Source: a virus
DNA length: 24,330 bases
Strand: one strand, 5' to 3'
Virus record (IMG/VR): IMGVR_UViG_3300000117_000130
Location: 7,206-31,535 of that record
Each line of letters starts with the position of its first letter. Position 1 is the stretch's first letter. The notes beneath the pieces were generated by a model. It did no database searches. It was not told the DNA's origin and worked only from the letters and a program-made list of their open reading frames with translations. A program made the position numbers and the translations under genes. This document shows positions 6,989 to 23,967 of this stretch, piece after piece.

Positions 6989-8209
6989 ATGCCCAGTAAC
7001 TACAAAGTTTCTTCCGACATAGATACCATCCTAAAGAAGTCAACAAAGGGGGAAGTAGCTACATTTTTAGGCGTAGATGCCAATACGAGTGGTGTTGCAA
7101 CTAATGCGAGCAACATTGCTACCAACACGGCAGACATTGCTACGAATACGGCGGACATAGCTACTAATGCTACAGACATAGCTACTAATGCTACAGACAT
7201 TGCTACAAACACGACAGGCATTGCTACAAACACGGCAAACATTGCTACGAATACAGCGGACATAGCTACTAATGCGAGCAACATTGCTACAAACACGGCA
7301 AGCATTGCTACGAATACAGCGAACATTGCTACCAATACAGCGAACATTGCTACCAATACAGCAAACATTGCTACCAATACGAGTGGTGTTGCAACTAATG
7401 CGAGCAACATAGCTACCAATACGAGTGATATTGCAACTAATGCTATTAACATAACAAATAACGTTCTCAATATAGCTGCAAAAGCACCAATTGTTGATCC
7501 AACTTTTATTGGTGATCTTACAGTAGGACAGATCGAGATTGGCTCAAGCTCAAGCTCTACTGTAGTTGATCTTCTAGATGCATCCAATTCCTCTGAAGCT
7601 CGTGATGCTATCGGAGCAATCAACTACCCTTATACCACGGACTTTCAGTCTGGCGTAGAGCAGACACGAGACCTGACGAGTATTACCAATTCGGATGGTT
7701 ATTTTTTTAACAGTAATCTCACTTCTGTTTACGTTGGTAGTAATGTGACTTCGATTGGGAGTAGTGCCTTTTCATACAGCGCTCTTACCCGTGTAACTCT
7801 TTCTGATAGCGTGACTTCGATTGGGAATTATGTTTTTAGTTCTTGCAGCAGCCTTACCAGCATAACCATTCCTGATAGCGTGACTTCGATTGGGAATTTT
7901 ACTTTTGCTTTTTGCACAAGCCTTACCAGCATAACCATTCCTGATAGCGTGACTTCGATTGGGAATTCTACTTTTGATTCTTGCAGCAGCCTTACCAGCA
8001 TAACCATTCCTGATAGCGTGACTTCGATTGGGAGTTATTCATTTTATTTCTGCAATAACCTTGCTACAATTAACTGTCTAGCTACAACAGCACCCACCTT
8101 GGGTTCAAATGTGTTTAGTGGTGTGTTGGCAACAGACATTCACGTTCCAGTAGGAGCAACAGGATACGGAACTACATATGGAGGTTTGACAGTCGTCGCA
8201 GATTTATAG
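6989..8209 (+). CDS. Tail fibre: trimeric coiled-coil stalk with BspA-like leucine-rich repeats
   Basis: This is a 406-residue protein. Residues 1-33 may be the virion anchor. Residues 34-152 are about 17 heptads of the form IATNTxx (I at a, N at d), the trimeric coiled-coil pattern known as N@d in trimeric autotransporter adhesins. Residues about 155-225 form a linker domain. Residues about 250-365 hold five 22-23-residue repeats with core SITIPDSVTSIGxxxFxxC, the BspA-like leucine-rich repeat (LRR_5) pattern. The last 40 residues look like a cap. A thin trimeric stalk carrying ligand-binding repeats fits a receptor-binding fibre. It is followed by a promoter candidate, a sulfotransferase and a fibre-assembly chaperone. 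The start ATG is four bases after the previous ORF's stop, without Shine-Dalgarno. Confidence 0.78.
   Translation: MPSNYKVSSDIDTILKKSTKGEVATFLGVDANTSGVATNASNIATNTADIATNTADIATNATDIATNATDIATNTTGIATNTANIATNTADIATNASNIATNTASIATNTANIATNTANIATNTANIATNTSGVATNASNIATNTSDIATNAINITNNVLNIAAKAPIVDPTFIGDLTVGQIEIGSSSSSTVVDLLDASNSSEARDAIGAINYPYTTDFQSGVEQTRDLTSITNSDGYFFNSNLTSVYVGSNVTSIGSSAFSYSALTRVTLSDSVTSIGNYVFSSCSSLTSITIPDSVTSIGNFTFAFCTSLTSITIPDSVTSIGNSTFDSCSSLTSITIPDSVTSIGSYSFYFCNNLATINCLATTAPTLGSNVFSGVLATDIHVPVGATGYGTTYGGLTVVADL
7088..7444 (+). repeat. 21-base tandem repeats coding the coiled-coil heptads
   Basis: About 17 consecutive 21-base units of the type ATTGCTACNAATACG encode IATNTxx. Several neighbouring units are nearly identical (for example 7310-7380), so slippage or recombination could lengthen or shorten the stalk in steps of seven residues. 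Confidence 0.9.
7745..8086 (+). repeat. 66/69-base tandem repeats coding leucine-rich repeats
   Basis: The core GTGACTTCGATTGGG recurs at 7745, 7811, 7880, 7949 and 8018 (spacings 66, 69, 69, 69). Between the cores, a segment encoding LTSITIPD is almost invariant in the last units, while a stretch of about 20-25 bases just after the core varies. Confidence 0.92.
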
Positions 8210-18065: not shown

Positions 18066-21000
18066 ATGTCAGAGGATGTTGCTAAGGGAATTAGTCTAGA
18101 TGAAGCTCGCACCCTAATGAATGGGGGCGACTCCGTCCAAGCGGCAGCGGGAATATCAATGGAGGAGGCAAAGTCCCTCATGAATAATGCTCAAGAGGAT
18201 CAACCATCCTTCACTGACTACTTGCGTTCAGTGCCAGCTACGGCAGTGGATATTATTGCTGGATCCGTTGAGGGTCTTACTTCCGCAATAGGTCAGTTCA
18301 CTGGGGACTACGAGCTAGCTAGAAACATCGGAGAGATCCGCACGGACATCAATGATGTAATTATGGGGGATGCCCCAGAGTCCATCAAGGGGGACTTCGC
18401 ATATAAGCTATCGTCTGGATTGGGCAGCACTATCCCCTACTTGGGTGCAGCACTGGTAGCCAAGCGACCAGATATGCTATCCAAGGTGGCTGCTAGTGGG
18501 TTCTTCCTGTCCTCTGCTGGTCAGCAGGTGCGTGATGACTACCTAGCTACAAAGGGAATAACATCTGAAACAGCAACAGATGAGCAAATGGCTGAGAGTG
18601 TTCGGGCGGGTGCTGTCGGTGCAGTCCCCATTGCACTAGCTGAAAGGCTTGGTGCTGGAGCTATCCTAAAGCCATTTACAAAGGGAGCTATACCCGCAGG
18701 CAAGGTTATGGAACGCATTAGTCAGTATGCTGTGGCGGGTGCAGGTGAAGCAGCTACGGAAGTAATGCAGTCTGGAATCATTAACAGCATAGCTAGCTAC
18801 GTAAGTAAGTATGATGAGGATCGTCCAATAACTAGGGGCATGGCTGAGTCCGCACTAATTGGTTTCCTAGTGGGGGGCGGTGTAAACGCTGGTGTTGATA
18901 CGGTGCAGCGTGCATTGACTCAATCGGATCGCATGCGTGCGGGTGTCCAAGATGGTAGCCTTAATGCAAATGATGTCATTGATCCCGATGTGGGTTCACA
19001 GATGGCAGCCATTGCCATGGAGAACGACTCTGTTCCAGAAGTTGATAGCGATCAACAGGCGAGACTAACAGATAAGAACAGTTTATCTAATTTTGTATCC
19101 AAGACATTAACACCCATCAGCCGTCGCTTGGGTCGTGCTGGTAAGGAAGTTGTACGTGAGTTCCGTAAGTTTGAAATGGATACTGGCATGAAGATCAATG
19201 AATACAAGGAGGCGGTAAGCCCCTTCAGTCAGAGAATGCTGGATCTGAAGAAGAGCAGCCCAGAGGACTACAAGATACTCTCACGGGCACTAGCTAATGC
19301 AAATGAGCTAGCAGAATCCCTACCTAACAGTGTTCAGCAGGACTTAGAAAAGAAAGCACAGATACAGCCAGAGATAATCAGATCCTCAAGTGAACAGTTA
19401 CTGGACATTGCAAATCCAGACGCACAGATAATTAACCAGCAGATTGATCAAGCTAGGCAGGCATTAGAAGCATCTGGATTAAAGACTAAAATTCACATTA
19501 TTGAGTCTGGTAACTCTTACTACGATCCGTCTTCCAACACCATAGCAATTAGTGCGGAGCAGGCCGACGGAACAACTGTTGCACACGAATACTTCCACGC
19601 CGCTCTTGGTCAAGCTGTAAAGACCGATTTAGAATTGCAGGGCATGACTCGCAATATGTTCGACAGTGTTATCCGTGCCTCAGTGGATGGGTCATCACTT
19701 AACGAACAACTAAAGGGATTTGTTTCCCAGTATGATGAGAACATCCAGAACGAAGAGTTCCTAGCCCAGACCGTTGGCGAGCTAGCTAGGCAATACAAGA
19801 CTCTGGACGTAAACACTAGGACACGGGTTAAGTTGTGGATTAACCAAGTCATGCAGAAGTTAGGGATCAGTGGTGTATTCAAGGAGGCTGAGACGGATGT
19901 CGAGGTTATCGAGCAGCTAAATGCATTCGCTAGATTCGCTGGGGACTCGGAGGCACTTACGGAGAAACTTAATCCATCATTCGTGCAAGAAATGCTAGAC
20001 CCCAAGGGCGAGCAAGCAATTTTAAGTGAACCAGTTCAGGCTTCAAAGCTACAGCTAGCTAACTTTCAGGACTTACCTAAACTAAAATTTACATCCAAGC
20101 CCAGCAAGTATTCTAGGATAGCTAACGGAAACCAAATAAACTTTGCTGAATTTATATCTAAATTAAAGTCAGAGAACGCAAGGGTTTCTTTTTGGGCAGC
20201 CGATCAGTTTGGCAGCGGAACATACACCGATGAAGTAAGCGGTAAGAAATACGACCTAGATGGAGGAATCAGTTTTCCGTTAGATAAAAAAGGGAAGCGT
20301 AAGGATTATGTTTGGGCTTCTACTGCGGATTCATCTATCAAAAAAATGCTAGCTGAGTCTGATTACGTATTTTTAGTGTCTGGTAAGCCAGACTCTCAAA
20401 TGCTTTTTAATAAACAAACTCACCAGATTGTAATAGATCGAGCAAAGAAAAAGTATGGAAGCCTTGATAATGCTCTTGATAGTATATTGAAAATTGCCGA
20501 GAGGGATGGCAGGGATAACGATCAGTTGAATGCCATGCGGAATATACGCAAGTTTGGTGCAGATAAGTATTTTAAAGATAAATCCAATACTGATGTGGGT
20601 AAATTCCTAAAGGCACTGAAAGGCCAATACGATTTAAAGGTCGATTCAGAATACAGGGAAGCAATAAGATCCATAATGCCAGACACAAACAACCTTAGGG
20701 ATGGTTTCCTTAAGGATAATGACTTTAACTTTCTTGATGTAATGGGAGTGATTAAGCCCAGTGGTGAAGTTGATGACAACTCTTCTGGTCACGGAACATA
20801 TAGGGACGGCGTTCGCGGTGAGTTCATTGGAGTTCCAGATGTAAAGGTTCCTGTCCATGATCTATTCACGGATGATGCAAAGGTGTTGTTCAAGGATGAG
20901 ATGGTAAAAAATTCAATTGCGGCAAAGGTTGCTAGATATACCAAGAAAACAAAGGGGATCCCTAGTGATGTAGAAGTCTCTGGGTTTATGGCAGAATCAG

Positions 21001-22859
21001 AAAAATATGCGTCTTCATTTATGAATATGCCATCCAAATATCATGGTGTTTACTCTGGTGGATCAACTGGGTTTAAATCAAGAAACGCAGAAACATTTAT
21101 TAATCCGTTCCCAGAGGGCGATCCAGTTACCGCAGAACAAATGACTGAGGGTGCAGGTGCTATTCGTCGCCAAAAGGAACGCAGGGAACGCACAGCAACC
21201 GAGGAGGAGATCATTCGTGGTCTGTCCGATGATGGTATGCGTCTTCTAGAAAAGCATGGGATGGTAGATGACTATCGCTCTGTGCGTGAAACCCTTGACA
21301 AAATCAAGGAGGAATACAAGGCACTTGGTCTAGATGCTAACTTTATCGACAACTACTTCCCTCGCTTGGTTCAAGACCTAAAGGGACTAAAGGAATCCTA
21401 CGGACAGGAAACTGGGATTGTTGACCAAGAGATTCGTCGCTACGAAAAAATGACTGGTCAAACACTCTCGGACTCCGAGCGTCAGATCATGTATGAGAAG
21501 CTAGCTAGATCAAGAATGCATCGTGGTGGAGCTTCCTCTCCTAGTAATATGAAGGAGCGTAGGACTGAGCTACTGCAAGAACCCCAGATGCAATACTACG
21601 CTGATCCCGAAGTAGCTCTAGATAACTACATTGAGAAAATGGTTAACGCCATTGAGACCAAGAAGCTAATCGGTGATGCTGCGTCTGGAAAGACCGAGGG
21701 TTCTGATCCAGTAGCTGGAAGGCTAGGGGAAGTGATGAAGAAGATGGCCGATGAGGGTCGCTTGCGTGACGATCAAATTGAAGTTATACAGGGTGCTGTG
21801 GCAGCTAGATTTGGTCAACACGGCAGTCAGTATGGCTTTGTCAAGGGAGCTAAGAACATGGGCTACCTAGCTACAATGGGTAACGTGGGGTCAACCCTTA
21901 CTCAGTTGGGTGACTTCTACTTCACTATGGTTCAGAATGGACTGATCCCCACCGTCGAGGCAGTGATGGGCAAGAAGAACATAACAGTGGAAGACTTGGG
22001 TATAGCTAAGGATTTAGTTGAAATCGACAGCAAGCAGGGGGCTGGAATGTTTTCCAATAGCGTTAAAAGTGTGTTTAAATGGACGGGGCTAACAGCCTTT
22101 GATAGGTTGGCTAAGAATACGAACATTAATGCGGCACACAATGTCCTGACCAAGGGTGCTAAGGCCAGCCAGACTAGCAACAAGTATAAAAAAACCCTAG
22201 CTAGGCTCAAGAGAACTCAGGGCAATGATGCATACAAGACGATAGCAGACCTACAGAATGGAGTTAAGAGCGACCTAGTTATTGAGGCTCTATACAATGA
22301 GCTAGCTGACGTAGCTCCAATATCCCTTACTGAAATGCCAGAGGTATACGCTGGAAACCCGAACCTTAGGATTATGTATAGCTTAAAATCCTATACCATT
22401 AAGCAATTTAACTTTGTCCGTGAGCGTGTGTTCTCTAAGCTAATGCAGGGAATAGCTACCAAGAACCCCCAGATGATTGGAGAAGCATCCGTGGATACAA
22501 TGAAGATCCTAGCATTTTCTACCCTAGCAAACGGATCCGCGGATGTGCTGAAAGCAATTGTGTTTAATCGCGAAATAGATGAGGACGATTTCTTCTGGGA
22601 CACATTCCTGCGAATCTTCGGCATAACTAAATACACTACAGTTCAAGCCAGAAAAGAAGGTTTAGGGATGGCTGTGTTGAAGATGGTAGCTCCACCGCAA
22701 TTCGGAATGCTGGACGATATCGCAAAGGACGTATCGGGGGCCAGAAGCCTAGAGGAAATGAGAACAGCAAAGTTTGTTCCTTTTGTAGGAAAGCTGTACT
22801 ACTGGCGAGAGGGCAGGGGCGAGGATGTTGAAGAAAAACTCTCTAGGCTCAACAGATAA
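18066..22859 (+). CDS. Giant virion (ejection-type, polyvalent) protein with HExxH domain
   Basis: This 1597-residue protein starts at ATG in a TAAATTATG context. Residues 1-50 have two GISxxEAxxLMN repeats. Residues about 60-290 hold several hydrophobic helices (AVDIIAGSVEGLTSAIG; GSTIPYLGAALVA; ALIGFLVGGGVNA), as in proteins that enter membranes. Residues 475-515 include HEYFH (507-511) in TTVAHEYFHAALG, a zinc metallopeptidase motif, with acidic residues about 55 later (NEEFLAQTVGELA) as candidate third ligands. Residues about 675-1015 form a distinct unrecognised domain. Residues 1030-1597 are helical, and the end (GNPNLRIMYSLKSYTIKQFN, KFVPFVGKLYYW) resembles large polyvalent protein C-terminal domains. 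Such proteins are packaged and ejected, which would place the peptidase in the host envelope or cytoplasm. It overlaps the convergent gene by 11 bases. Confidence 0.72.
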   Translation: MSEDVAKGISLDEARTLMNGGDSVQAAAGISMEEAKSLMNNAQEDQPSFTDYLRSVPATAVDIIAGSVEGLTSAIGQFTGDYELARNIGEIRTDINDVIMGDAPESIKGDFAYKLSSGLGSTIPYLGAALVAKRPDMLSKVAASGFFLSSAGQQVRDDYLATKGITSETATDEQMAESVRAGAVGAVPIALAERLGAGAILKPFTKGAIPAGKVMERISQYAVAGAGEAATEVMQSGIINSIASYVSKYDEDRPITRGMAESALIGFLVGGGVNAGVDTVQRALTQSDRMRAGVQDGSLNANDVIDPDVGSQMAAIAMENDSVPEVDSDQQARLTDKNSLSNFVSKTLTPISRRLGRAGKEVVREFRKFEMDTGMKINEYKEAVSPFSQRMLDLKKSSPEDYKILSRALANANELAESLPNSVQQDLEKKAQIQPEIIRSSSEQLLDIANPDAQIINQQIDQARQALEASGLKTKIHIIESGNSYYDPSSNTIAISAEQADGTTVAHEYFHAALGQAVKTDLELQGMTRNMFDSVIRASVDGSSLNEQLKGFVSQYDENIQNEEFLAQTVGELARQYKTLDVNTRTRVKLWINQVMQKLGISGVFKEAETDVEVIEQLNAFARFAGDSEALTEKLNPSFVQEMLDPKGEQAILSEPVQASKLQLANFQDLPKLKFTSKPSKYSRIANGNQINFAEFISKLKSENARVSFWAADQFGSGTYTDEVSGKKYDLDGGISFPLDKKGKRKDYVWASTADSSIKKMLAESDYVFLVSGKPDSQMLFNKQTHQIVIDRAKKKYGSLDNALDSILKIAERDGRDNDQLNAMRNIRKFGADKYFKDKSNTDVGKFLKALKGQYDLKVDSEYREAIRSIMPDTNNLRDGFLKDNDFNFLDVMGVIKPSGEVDDNSSGHGTYRDGVRGEFIGVPDVKVPVHDLFTDDAKVLFKDEMVKNSIAAKVARYTKKTKGIPSDVEVSGFMAESEKYASSFMNMPSKYHGVYSGGSTGFKSRNAETFINPFPEGDPVTAEQMTEGAGAIRRQKERRERTATEEEIIRGLSDDGMRLLEKHGMVDDYRSVRETLDKIKEEYKALGLDANFIDNYFPRLVQDLKGLKESYGQETGIVDQEIRRYEKMTGQTLSDSERQIMYEKLARSRMHRGGASSPSNMKERRTELLQEPQMQYYADPEVALDNYIEKMVNAIETKKLIGDAASGKTEGSDPVAGRLGEVMKKMADEGRLRDDQIEVIQGAVAARFGQHGSQYGFVKGAKNMGYLATMGNVGSTLTQLGDFYFTMVQNGLIPTVEAVMGKKNITVEDLGIAKDLVEIDSKQGAGMFSNSVKSVFKWTGLTAFDRLAKNTNINAAHNVLTKGAKASQTSNKYKKTLARLKRTQGNDAYKTIADLQNGVKSDLVIEALYNELADVAPISLTEMPEVYAGNPNLRIMYSLKSYTIKQFNFVRERVFSKLMQGIATKNPQMIGEASVDTMKILAFSTLANGSADVLKAIVFNREIDEDDFFWDTFLRIFGITKYTTVQARKEGLGMAVLKMVAPPQFGMLDDIAKDVSGARSLEEMRTAKFVPFVGKLYYWREGRGEDVEEKLSRLNR

Positions 22860-23388
22860 AGCAACTTAAATCATCTTTACTGGGGGCACAGTTTGCGGCA
22901 CTCTTGCTGATCAAGATATGCGGTATCTTATACAAGTCATCGGGGTGAATCTTGGACAGCAGGTCATCCCTTCCGTATTTTTTTCTGGAATACATCTTAT
23001 ACATGCAATCCTTGGGCGAGCTAACATGGGTGCTTTTATCCACCAAGCTATCTACTAATTGTATTAAATCCTCCTTGCGAACTAGCTGAAACTCTTTTTC
23101 TCGCTCAAAAGCAAAGTGCGTGGCTTTCCCATACAGCCACCCACTCCCTCCAGATATTCCCCTGAACTCAATCCATAGGGTCTCTGGGTCTTTTATGGAC
23201 TTAACGTCAACGTCCATTGATAGTCTGCAACGGAAGTCTATGTGATCAAACTGACCATTTTGCACTCCAGTTAGCTCAATATTTGATCCAAAGAAACCAT
23301 CAATTGATTTCTTGAAGTCGCACTCGGCTGCGGCACCCTTCTCACTGGCCCTGCCAGTTCTGTCTAGCTCGTTTCTATATGATTTCAT
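22849..23388 (-). CDS. PD-(D/E)xK nuclease-like protein
   Basis: I choose ATG at 23388 (179 residues), not the GTG at 23406: a strong GGGGAGG Shine-Dalgarno lies nine bases before the ATG, and the GTG would be inside that hairpin. A FDHIDFRC strand is followed by SMDVDVKS (Asp59, Asp61 and Lys63 from the chosen start) and LWIEFRGISGGSGWLYG. An acidic residue, strand, D-x-K and a G-W-L-Y-G motif are typical of small phage proteins with a restriction-endonuclease-like fold. The C-terminal half is basic and helical. A role in DNA repair, recombination or host DNA degradation is inference. It faces the late operon and overlaps the giant gene's end by 11 bases. The late-operon terminator and this gene's ribosome site share bases. 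Confidence 0.5.
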   Translation of the reverse strand: MKSYRNELDRTGRASEKGAAAECDFKKSIDGFFGSNIELTGVQNGQFDHIDFRCRLSMDVDVKSIKDPETLWIEFRGISGGSGWLYGKATHFAFEREKEFQLVRKEDLIQLVDSLVDKSTHVSSPKDCMYKMYSRKKYGRDDLLSKIHPDDLYKIPHILISKSAANCAPSKDDLSCFIC

Positions 23389-23397
23389 ATTAATGGG

Positions 23398-23438
23398 CCT
23401 CCCCACCTAACATAGCGCTAAGTGGGGAGGTTTTTTTT
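23398..23438 (+). terminator. Rho-independent terminator of late operon; hairpin also holds opposite-strand SD
   Basis: CCTCCCCAC (23398-23406) pairs perfectly with GTGGGGAGG (23422-23430), followed by eight Ts (23431-23438). This is a canonical intrinsic terminator for plus-strand transcripts. On the minus strand the same stem contains the GGGGAGG Shine-Dalgarno of the nuclease-like gene. It is the first strong terminator after the structural genes. Confidence 0.85.
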
Positions 23439-23510
23439 ATCGGGATTAATAGAGGTGGAAACAATGACAAAACCACCCGCTGGGGATTGCTCCATCAGCT
23501 TACCGACAAA

Positions 23511-23735
23511 TTATTTATTCCTAGATCTGTTTGTTTTCTTTGATTGAACACGTAGATTTTTACGAGAGGTATTGCGAGGGTTGCGATCCTTATGGTCGAT
23601 GTCCTTGCCTTTTAGCTTGGATTTCCCGACTGCTTTGACCATCTTGCGTCTTGATTTCTTTCGGGCATCGTTACGCTTTCGCTGTTCTGGCTTGCTCTGG
23701 TAATTATCGTATTCTTTTCTGTAGTTCCTAGGCAT
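23511..23735 (-). CDS. Small HNH-type endonuclease-like protein
   Basis: This is a 74-residue, very basic protein: MPRNYRKEYDNYQSKPEQRK, then ARKKSRRKMVKAVG, KDIDHKDRNPRN and SRKNLRVQSKKTNRSR. The DHKDRNPxN...NLRV signature is that of short phage HNH proteins, in which the DH and the N-x-x-N-L-R elements form part of the metal and DNA site. The family is usually 60-110 residues and often nicks or cuts DNA near packaging or replication modules. The upstream gene ends 28 bases before it. No Shine-Dalgarno precedes its ATG. The 104 bases between it and the terminator hold no gene, apart from weak GC stems. Confidence 0.7.
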   Translation of the reverse strand: MPRNYRKEYDNYQSKPEQRKRNDARKKSRRKMVKAVGKSKLKGKDIDHKDRNPRNTSRKNLRVQSKKTNRSRNK

Positions 23736-23754
23736 TATTAGATTTTAACACAGG

Positions 23755-23767
23755 GTGATTAAATCAC
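23755..23767. repeat. Perfect 13-base palindrome between minus-strand genes
   Basis: GTGATTAAATCAC is an inverted repeat of six bases on each side of one central A. It overlaps the stop of the coiled-coil gene and lies upstream of the HNH gene start on the minus strand. It could be an operator or a transcript hairpin. Confidence 0.4.
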
Positions 23768-23967
23768 TCTTTGGATTCTTGGTTAACTAGAATTCGCTCC
23801 TGTAGCCTAGCTATCTTATTTTTCATCTTCTCGATGTCAAGATTAAGAGTCTCGTTCTGTTTGGACAGTGCATCGCATGCCTTTGTCATGGCGTTTAAGC
23901 CCCTAACTAGCACGTTTTCTGTGTCTGGTGCAAACATTACTACTTCATTGGTTTTTTTACTACTCAT
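23764..23967 (-). CDS. Small coiled-coil protein A
   Basis: This is a 67-residue protein. Residues 10-30 have a beta-like start (VVMFAPDTENVLVRGL), then residues about 25-60 form a coiled coil (ALSKQNETLNLDIEKMKNKI, ARLQERIL). There are no cysteines or membrane helix. Its ATG overlaps the upstream gene's stop (ATGA, 23964-23967), so the two are probably translated together. The pair may oligomerise or bind a phage or host protein; function unknown. Confidence 0.6.
   Translation of the reverse strand: MSSKKTNEVVMFAPDTENVLVRGLNAMTKACDALSKQNETLNLDIEKMKNKIARLQERILVNQESKE

Follow-up and report, generated by a model that had tools for sequence, protein, structure and literature searches.

The hairpin in front of a nuclease-like gene in the window (the whole 24,330-nt stretch of DNA analysed here, which belongs to a 31.5-kb virus record) is probably P4, the 3′-terminal stem of a structured phage RNA that is encoded on the early strand at the early/late junction and that has been reused in the lineage of the window. 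Over 100 viral contigs carry the RNA, as does C75C1, the single deposited phage genome in which it was found. A sequence-only reading of the window had described this hairpin as a late-operon terminator that shares its stem with the Shine-Dalgarno (SD) sequence of the opposing gene, and had not recognised the stem as part of a larger conserved RNA, of which it forms one helix. The features of the window that are needed below are as follows.

18066–22859, plus strand: giant late gene, 1597 aa (open reading frame; overlaps the nuclease gene tail to tail by 11 bp)
22849–23388, minus strand: PD-(D/E)XK-fold nuclease-like gene, 179 aa (open reading frame; fold of the AlphaFold2 model)
23404–23398, minus strand: SD sequence GGGGAGG for the nuclease gene, base-paired inside P4 (sequence and fold)
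23430–23398, minus strand: P4 hairpin, 14 bp on the early strand, with the SD sequence in its 3′ arm
23397–23438, plus strand: late-strand intrinsic-terminator-like site, P4 stem plus U8 tail (−18.7 kcal/mol)
23512–23436, minus strand: three-way junction; P1, 23510–23503 with 23443–23436; P2, 23499–23479; P3, from 23478
23512–23398, minus strand: whole structured RNA, ca. 115 nt, three-way junction P1–P3 plus terminator-type hairpin P4
23511–23735, minus strand: HNH_3 protein gene, 74 aa (Pfam HNH_3, 1.3e-7; 88–95% identical in relatives)

Hairpin site in the window

On the plus strand, positions 23398–23430 read CCTCCCCAC..GTGGGGAGG and are followed by T8 at 23431–23438, as verified base by base; a GC-rich stem lies directly 5′ of a U-tract, the arrangement of a late (plus-strand) intrinsic terminator. 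The last three T of the U8 (23436–23438) face the 3′ strand of P1. When terminators were searched with loops of up to ca. 30 nt, 23397–23438 was the sole strong plus-strand site in 22600–23800, and no other was found after the stop of the giant gene (22859) up to 23800. A simple terminator scan, with a loop limit of 8 nt, overlooked this site. These searches agree with the earlier claims that no terminator lies just past the giant gene and that the first strong one on the late strand, with its stem at 23398–23430 and its U8 at 23431–23438, lies beyond the convergent gene. In the early (minus) direction, the tail behind the stem in the window, CCCATTAATA, is not U-rich and does not give an intrinsic terminator.

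The distance from GGGGAGG to the nuclease ATG (23388–23386) is 9 nt, and both the sequence and the minus-strand fold place this motif within the stem, just as the sequence-only reading had it. The minus-strand fold of the hairpin has an energy of −28.0 kcal/mol (z, −5.9), equalled by 0 of 200 shuffles, and the plus-strand fold has −20.2 kcal/mol (z, −2.0), equalled by 7 of 200. The hairpin is more than chance. The stem of the window is better as minus-strand RNA because its two inner wobbles, G-U in that RNA, become A-C in the plus-strand RNA.

Structure and covariation of the RNA

In the window, the stop codon that ends the upstream HNH gene also begins the RNA, and the entire stretch from this stop codon to the nuclease ATG is conserved. 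P1 is formed by UUUGUCGG/CCGAUAAA, P2 is capped by a GYAA tetraloop with an A-U closing pair, and the nucleotides within and around the junction are conserved. In an alignment of 23 sequences, 16 of the 22 pairs vary on both sides, and the covariation score was 0.512 compared with 0.223 for shuffled alignments and at most 0.21 for slid versions. A second alignment comprised 36 sequences outside the model; its P1 core pairs were standard in 36/36 and its score was 0.483 versus 0.191 for shuffled alignments, with GGUAA, GAGYAAUC, and one GG fixed by the search pattern and the P1 pairs beyond GG/CC left free. In this second alignment, P1 pairs 6/76, 7/75, and 8/74 showed 17, 19, and 11 double changes, respectively. 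RNAalifold recovered the junction unguided on both alignments.

The covariance model (R1) scored the window, whose sequence is part of the model, at 73.5 bits (E = 2.3e-16). It gave one strong match per carrier contig, and no strong match in HNH-only relatives or distant nuclease homologs. A search of Rfam 15 with the elements of the window, C75C1, and L269 returned no family near its gathering score; BTnc231, Atu_C7, and other weak matches lay far under their gathering scores and were rejected, and these matches probably reflect terminator-like ends. The comparisons indicate that the predicted RNA is a previously uncatalogued fold with strong covariation.

Distribution and genomic context

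Most of the carriers, which make up a large group of phages, are uncultivated. Viral contigs scanned with a sequence pattern gave at least 119 stretches, the covariance model gave 83 matches among the first 100 new loci, and the RNA is kept across phages whose helicases are 44% identical. Phage C75C1 (OQ984151, 39,484 bp), which is outside the model, was found via its terminase (70% identity). Its RNA scored 64.5 bits (E = 4.7e-15) and occupies a 148-nt gap between the giant late gene and the early operon; its P4 has the form A7-stem-U7, a bidirectional terminator, and the nuclease is missing. A literature search on C75C1 found nothing on this phage, and searches of named phages with the window DNA or with either nuclease subfamily (see below) gave no match. 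A weak covariance-model match in L355 (0.0025) was set aside; it has no terminator hairpin behind the junction. Two phage-like contigs that carry the RNA were binned with Bacteroidota (L354, from a Lewinellaceae MAG, and L356, from the single-cell assembly of Flavobacterium sp. SCGC AAA160-P02) and hint at the hosts of part of the clade.

A large convergent gene was located at the same place in nearly all contigs examined, and in most of them it ends ca. 25–50 nt behind P1 of the junction. Upstream of the RNA lies the last gene of the early module, with a DnaB-type helicase usually 0.2–2.3 kb away. In most relatives, no gene follows P4 and only the stop of the convergent gene lies behind it. 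The genes before the RNA form an exchangeable cassette, which includes the 74-aa HNH protein, a 240-aa HNH protein with an AP2-like domain, an endonuclease VII-like protein, and 140-aa proteins of unknown function. In some phages (L323, L310, and L270), the stop codon of the upstream ORF lies inside the RNA. In the subgroup of L323, L318, L300, L283, L262, L263, and L294, this stop is the TAA in the GAGTAAT loop of the RNA, and several members have a TTGACA-like box behind the terminator.

A perfect TATAAT was located 0–35 nt upstream of the RNA start in 15 of 34 representatives, versus 4% in shuffles, the phages being related and the counts not independent. Many of these boxes read GTGTATAAT, a sequence that usually occurs once per locus, at the RNA start. 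No −35 box was evident near the RNA start. The group of the window has no TATAAT near the RNA start; therefore, the RNA would exist there only as a segment of a long mRNA.

This context bears on whether the element is a separate RNA at all or only gives the early mRNA a 3′ end that is regulated or protected, as terminator and stabiliser. Its fixed position where the early operon ends and the upstream stop codon inside the RNA of the L323-type phages speak for the latter. However, the near-invariant junction and tetraloop exceed the needs of a terminator, and many lineages have TATAAT at the RNA start. We regard a mere 3′ end as possible, though not as the likely explanation.

Strand and termination of P4 among relatives

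A comparison of hairpin conservation showed that P4 is kept, with compensatory changes, in every relative. When one scanning rule was applied to both strands, the early strand gave the more stable P4 in each of 68 distinct elements, with a median difference of 7.9 kcal/mol. The G-U wobbles in 57 P4 stems numbered 148 when read as early-strand RNA versus 13 as late-strand RNA, a count in which the stems had been picked on the early strand, so that the two-strand scan is the fairer test. These results argue strongly that the P4 stem is selected as early-strand RNA.

In nuclease-less phages, P4 on the early strand is followed by a U-rich tail, which gives the form of an intrinsic terminator, and in several cases the tail is folded into a longer A-U stem. 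The late strand of these nuclease-less elements is U-rich in only 1 of 39. The early-strand U-tract of the nuclease-bearing group is often shifted or broken, as in the window (CCCATTAATA). P4 showed no late-strand terminator in L007, L025, L026, L031, L034, L036, L041, and L212. The predicted late terminator is real in the window but appears lineage-specific, because a usable late-strand U-tract is restricted to the window and its nearest relatives.

It had been proposed that one hairpin both ends late RNA and restricts translation of the opposing gene. Both geometries are indeed present in the window, the late terminator as well as the SD sequence in the stem. Late termination as the main role of the hairpin is not supported, since no good late-strand U-tract occurs outside the window and its closest relatives and the stem appears to be selected as early-strand RNA. 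A hairpin that is mainly a late-operon terminator, with the covering of the opposing SD sequence as a second selected role, would account for the U8 tail, for this being the only strong plus-strand terminator in the region, and for an SD sequence within the stem. It does not account for a stem that is always better on the early strand, for the absence of the late-strand U-tract from most nuclease-bearing and nearly all nuclease-less lineages, or for the conserved three-way junction, and we consider it unlikely. Elements that have a gene behind P4 and elements that have none showed no significant difference in the predicted binding of their 3′ arm to the anti-SD sequence (p = 0.22); therefore, the SD role may be incidental to the G-rich stem.

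Nuclease-like gene behind P4

The 179-aa protein had no sequence match in Pfam, PHROG, or PDB. Its AlphaFold2 model (pLDDT 78.7) matched I-Ssp6803I, NhoI, Hjc, and RecU with Z of 7–8.8, and the best structural matches were nearly all PD-(D/E)XK enzymes (Z up to 8.8). E22, H49-I50-D51, V62-K63, and E74 were invariant in 30 homologs, in which the catalytic acidic residues and lysine are represented by E22, D51, and (D/E)-V-K63. Based on the model, the protein has a PD-(D/E)XK core fold and is a predicted nuclease; the earlier label "nuclease-like" is backed by this fold.

The protein is encoded in eight viral contigs, and a relative with 70% identity in two more. In all of them, a hairpin with a G-rich 3′ arm, often of a different sequence, lies directly before the ATG. 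A search with the HNH neighbour gave eight further contigs with a different nuclease subfamily at the same place behind the same leader. The two subfamilies are homologous (hhalign, 99.7%), and genes of both have their start immediately after P4, the SD-like G-rich arm preceding the ATG. The leader is absent from distant homologs in other phages (30–47% identity to subfamily 2).

T4-related homing endonuclease genes (I-TevI, segB, and mobE) and the T4 genes e and soc have hairpins that sequester the ribosome-binding site, and expression is released by a late promoter that lies in the hairpin (PMC2988022, PMC3014915). As in these genes, the nuclease SD sequence of the window lies ca. 8–9 nt before the AUG and would be masked by a stable hairpin in readthrough transcripts. 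In contrast to them, the hairpin of the window looks like a former early-strand terminator that closes a larger conserved RNA as its last helix, no sigma70-like late promoter was seen within it, its opposite strand also has a terminator, and the nuclease gene is convergent to the late genes. A timing switch of the T4 kind, known from I-TevI, mobE, and e, in which the hairpin blocks the SD sequence on long early RNA and a late promoter in the 5′ arm yields a short late mRNA with a free SD sequence, is suggested by the same layout in the known phage nuclease genes (PMC2988022, PMC3014915). We nevertheless consider it quite unlikely: a scan for sigma70-like sites found no such minus-strand promoter at P4, the 4-nt loops of L025 and L026 leave no room for a conserved promoter outside the stem, and the nuclease gene runs in the early direction, opposite to the late genes. 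A promoter in the hairpin loop was rejected, the loop sequences being variable among relatives.

A riboswitch-like element, in which the junction would sense a ligand or protein and toggle P4 over the nuclease SD sequence, has the classic layout of a junction and an SD hairpin right before the ATG as well as conserved nucleotides in and around the junction, but it is very improbable, since no alternative pairing of P4 was established and most carriers have no gene behind P4, and therefore control of a downstream gene cannot explain the conservation of the RNA.

Proposed origin and role of the RNA

The fold of the RNA, its strand, its fixed position, and the terminator form of P4 where no gene follows are established at the level of comparative sequence evidence. 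In the explanation that we prefer, P4 as the reused end stem of an early-strand RNA, the three-way junction and the terminator-type hairpin would make up the 3′ end at which the early operon abuts the convergent late operon. We infer that in the lineage of the window the PD-(D/E)XK nuclease gene sits behind P4, that a weakened early-strand U-tract lets early transcription read through P4, and that the nuclease gene uses the G-rich 3′ arm of P4 as its SD sequence. The strong P4 stem would keep nuclease translation low on the early readthrough mRNA, and the A-rich stretch before P4, which is the U8 on the opposite strand, would make the stem a late terminator in this lineage. The G-rich terminator arm would have been ready as an SD sequence when the nuclease gene settled behind P4; the terminator presumably came first and the SD role later, because the terminator form is more widely distributed.

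The three-way junction is kept where no gene follows and is unneeded for the SD and terminator roles; therefore, it probably has a role of its own. We consider a stable small RNA, or a scaffold or component of an RNP, the most likely identity of the RNA. On balance, we lean toward a new family of free-standing phage RNA, retained at the early/late junction over a broad clade of phages and with a dedicated function, trans-acting or in an RNP, whose terminator stem has become a translational lock on the nuclease in some lineages.

Known systems share parts of this arrangement. The A7-stem-U7 of C75C1 is like a bidirectional terminator between convergent operons, and the window has the late-strand half of one. 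Unlike such a terminator, most relatives have only the early-strand U-tract, and a covarying three-way junction precedes P4. Lambda OOP RNA is a phage-encoded small RNA. Like the phage small RNAs (reviewed in PMC12197685), the RNA described here is short and structured, ends in an intrinsic terminator in most members, is convergent to another gene, and in many members has its own −10-like element. It differs from the known ones in its three-way-junction fold and in having no Rfam family match. The packaging RNA of phi29 is also phage-encoded and built on a three-way junction. Our RNA resembles it in both respects, but it had no match to it or any other family in Rfam, and a packaging role is without support.

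The phage clade that carries this conserved, covariation-supported RNA has a single identified relative among the deposited genomes, and the fold, strand, start, and end of the RNA are testable. One palindrome can act as a terminator on each strand and as a lock on a ribosome-binding site, and G-U versus A-C changes can reveal the strand under selection. The RNA would count as a new phage regulator if it acts in trans.

Other observations

Two related phages carry a 72-nt tmRNA-like tRNA domain in their early region (L007:2131–2202, also in L008; Rfam tmRNA, 59.4 bits). Its 5′ and 3′ ends are joined by a short hairpin, and it has a CCA end and no tag-coding part. It is possibly a tmRNA mimic or the remnant of an attachment site. 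Among the structural genes of the window, 6989–8209 encodes a BspA-type leucine-rich repeat protein (LRR_5, E = 1e-55), whose N-terminus has weak matches to tail fibres.
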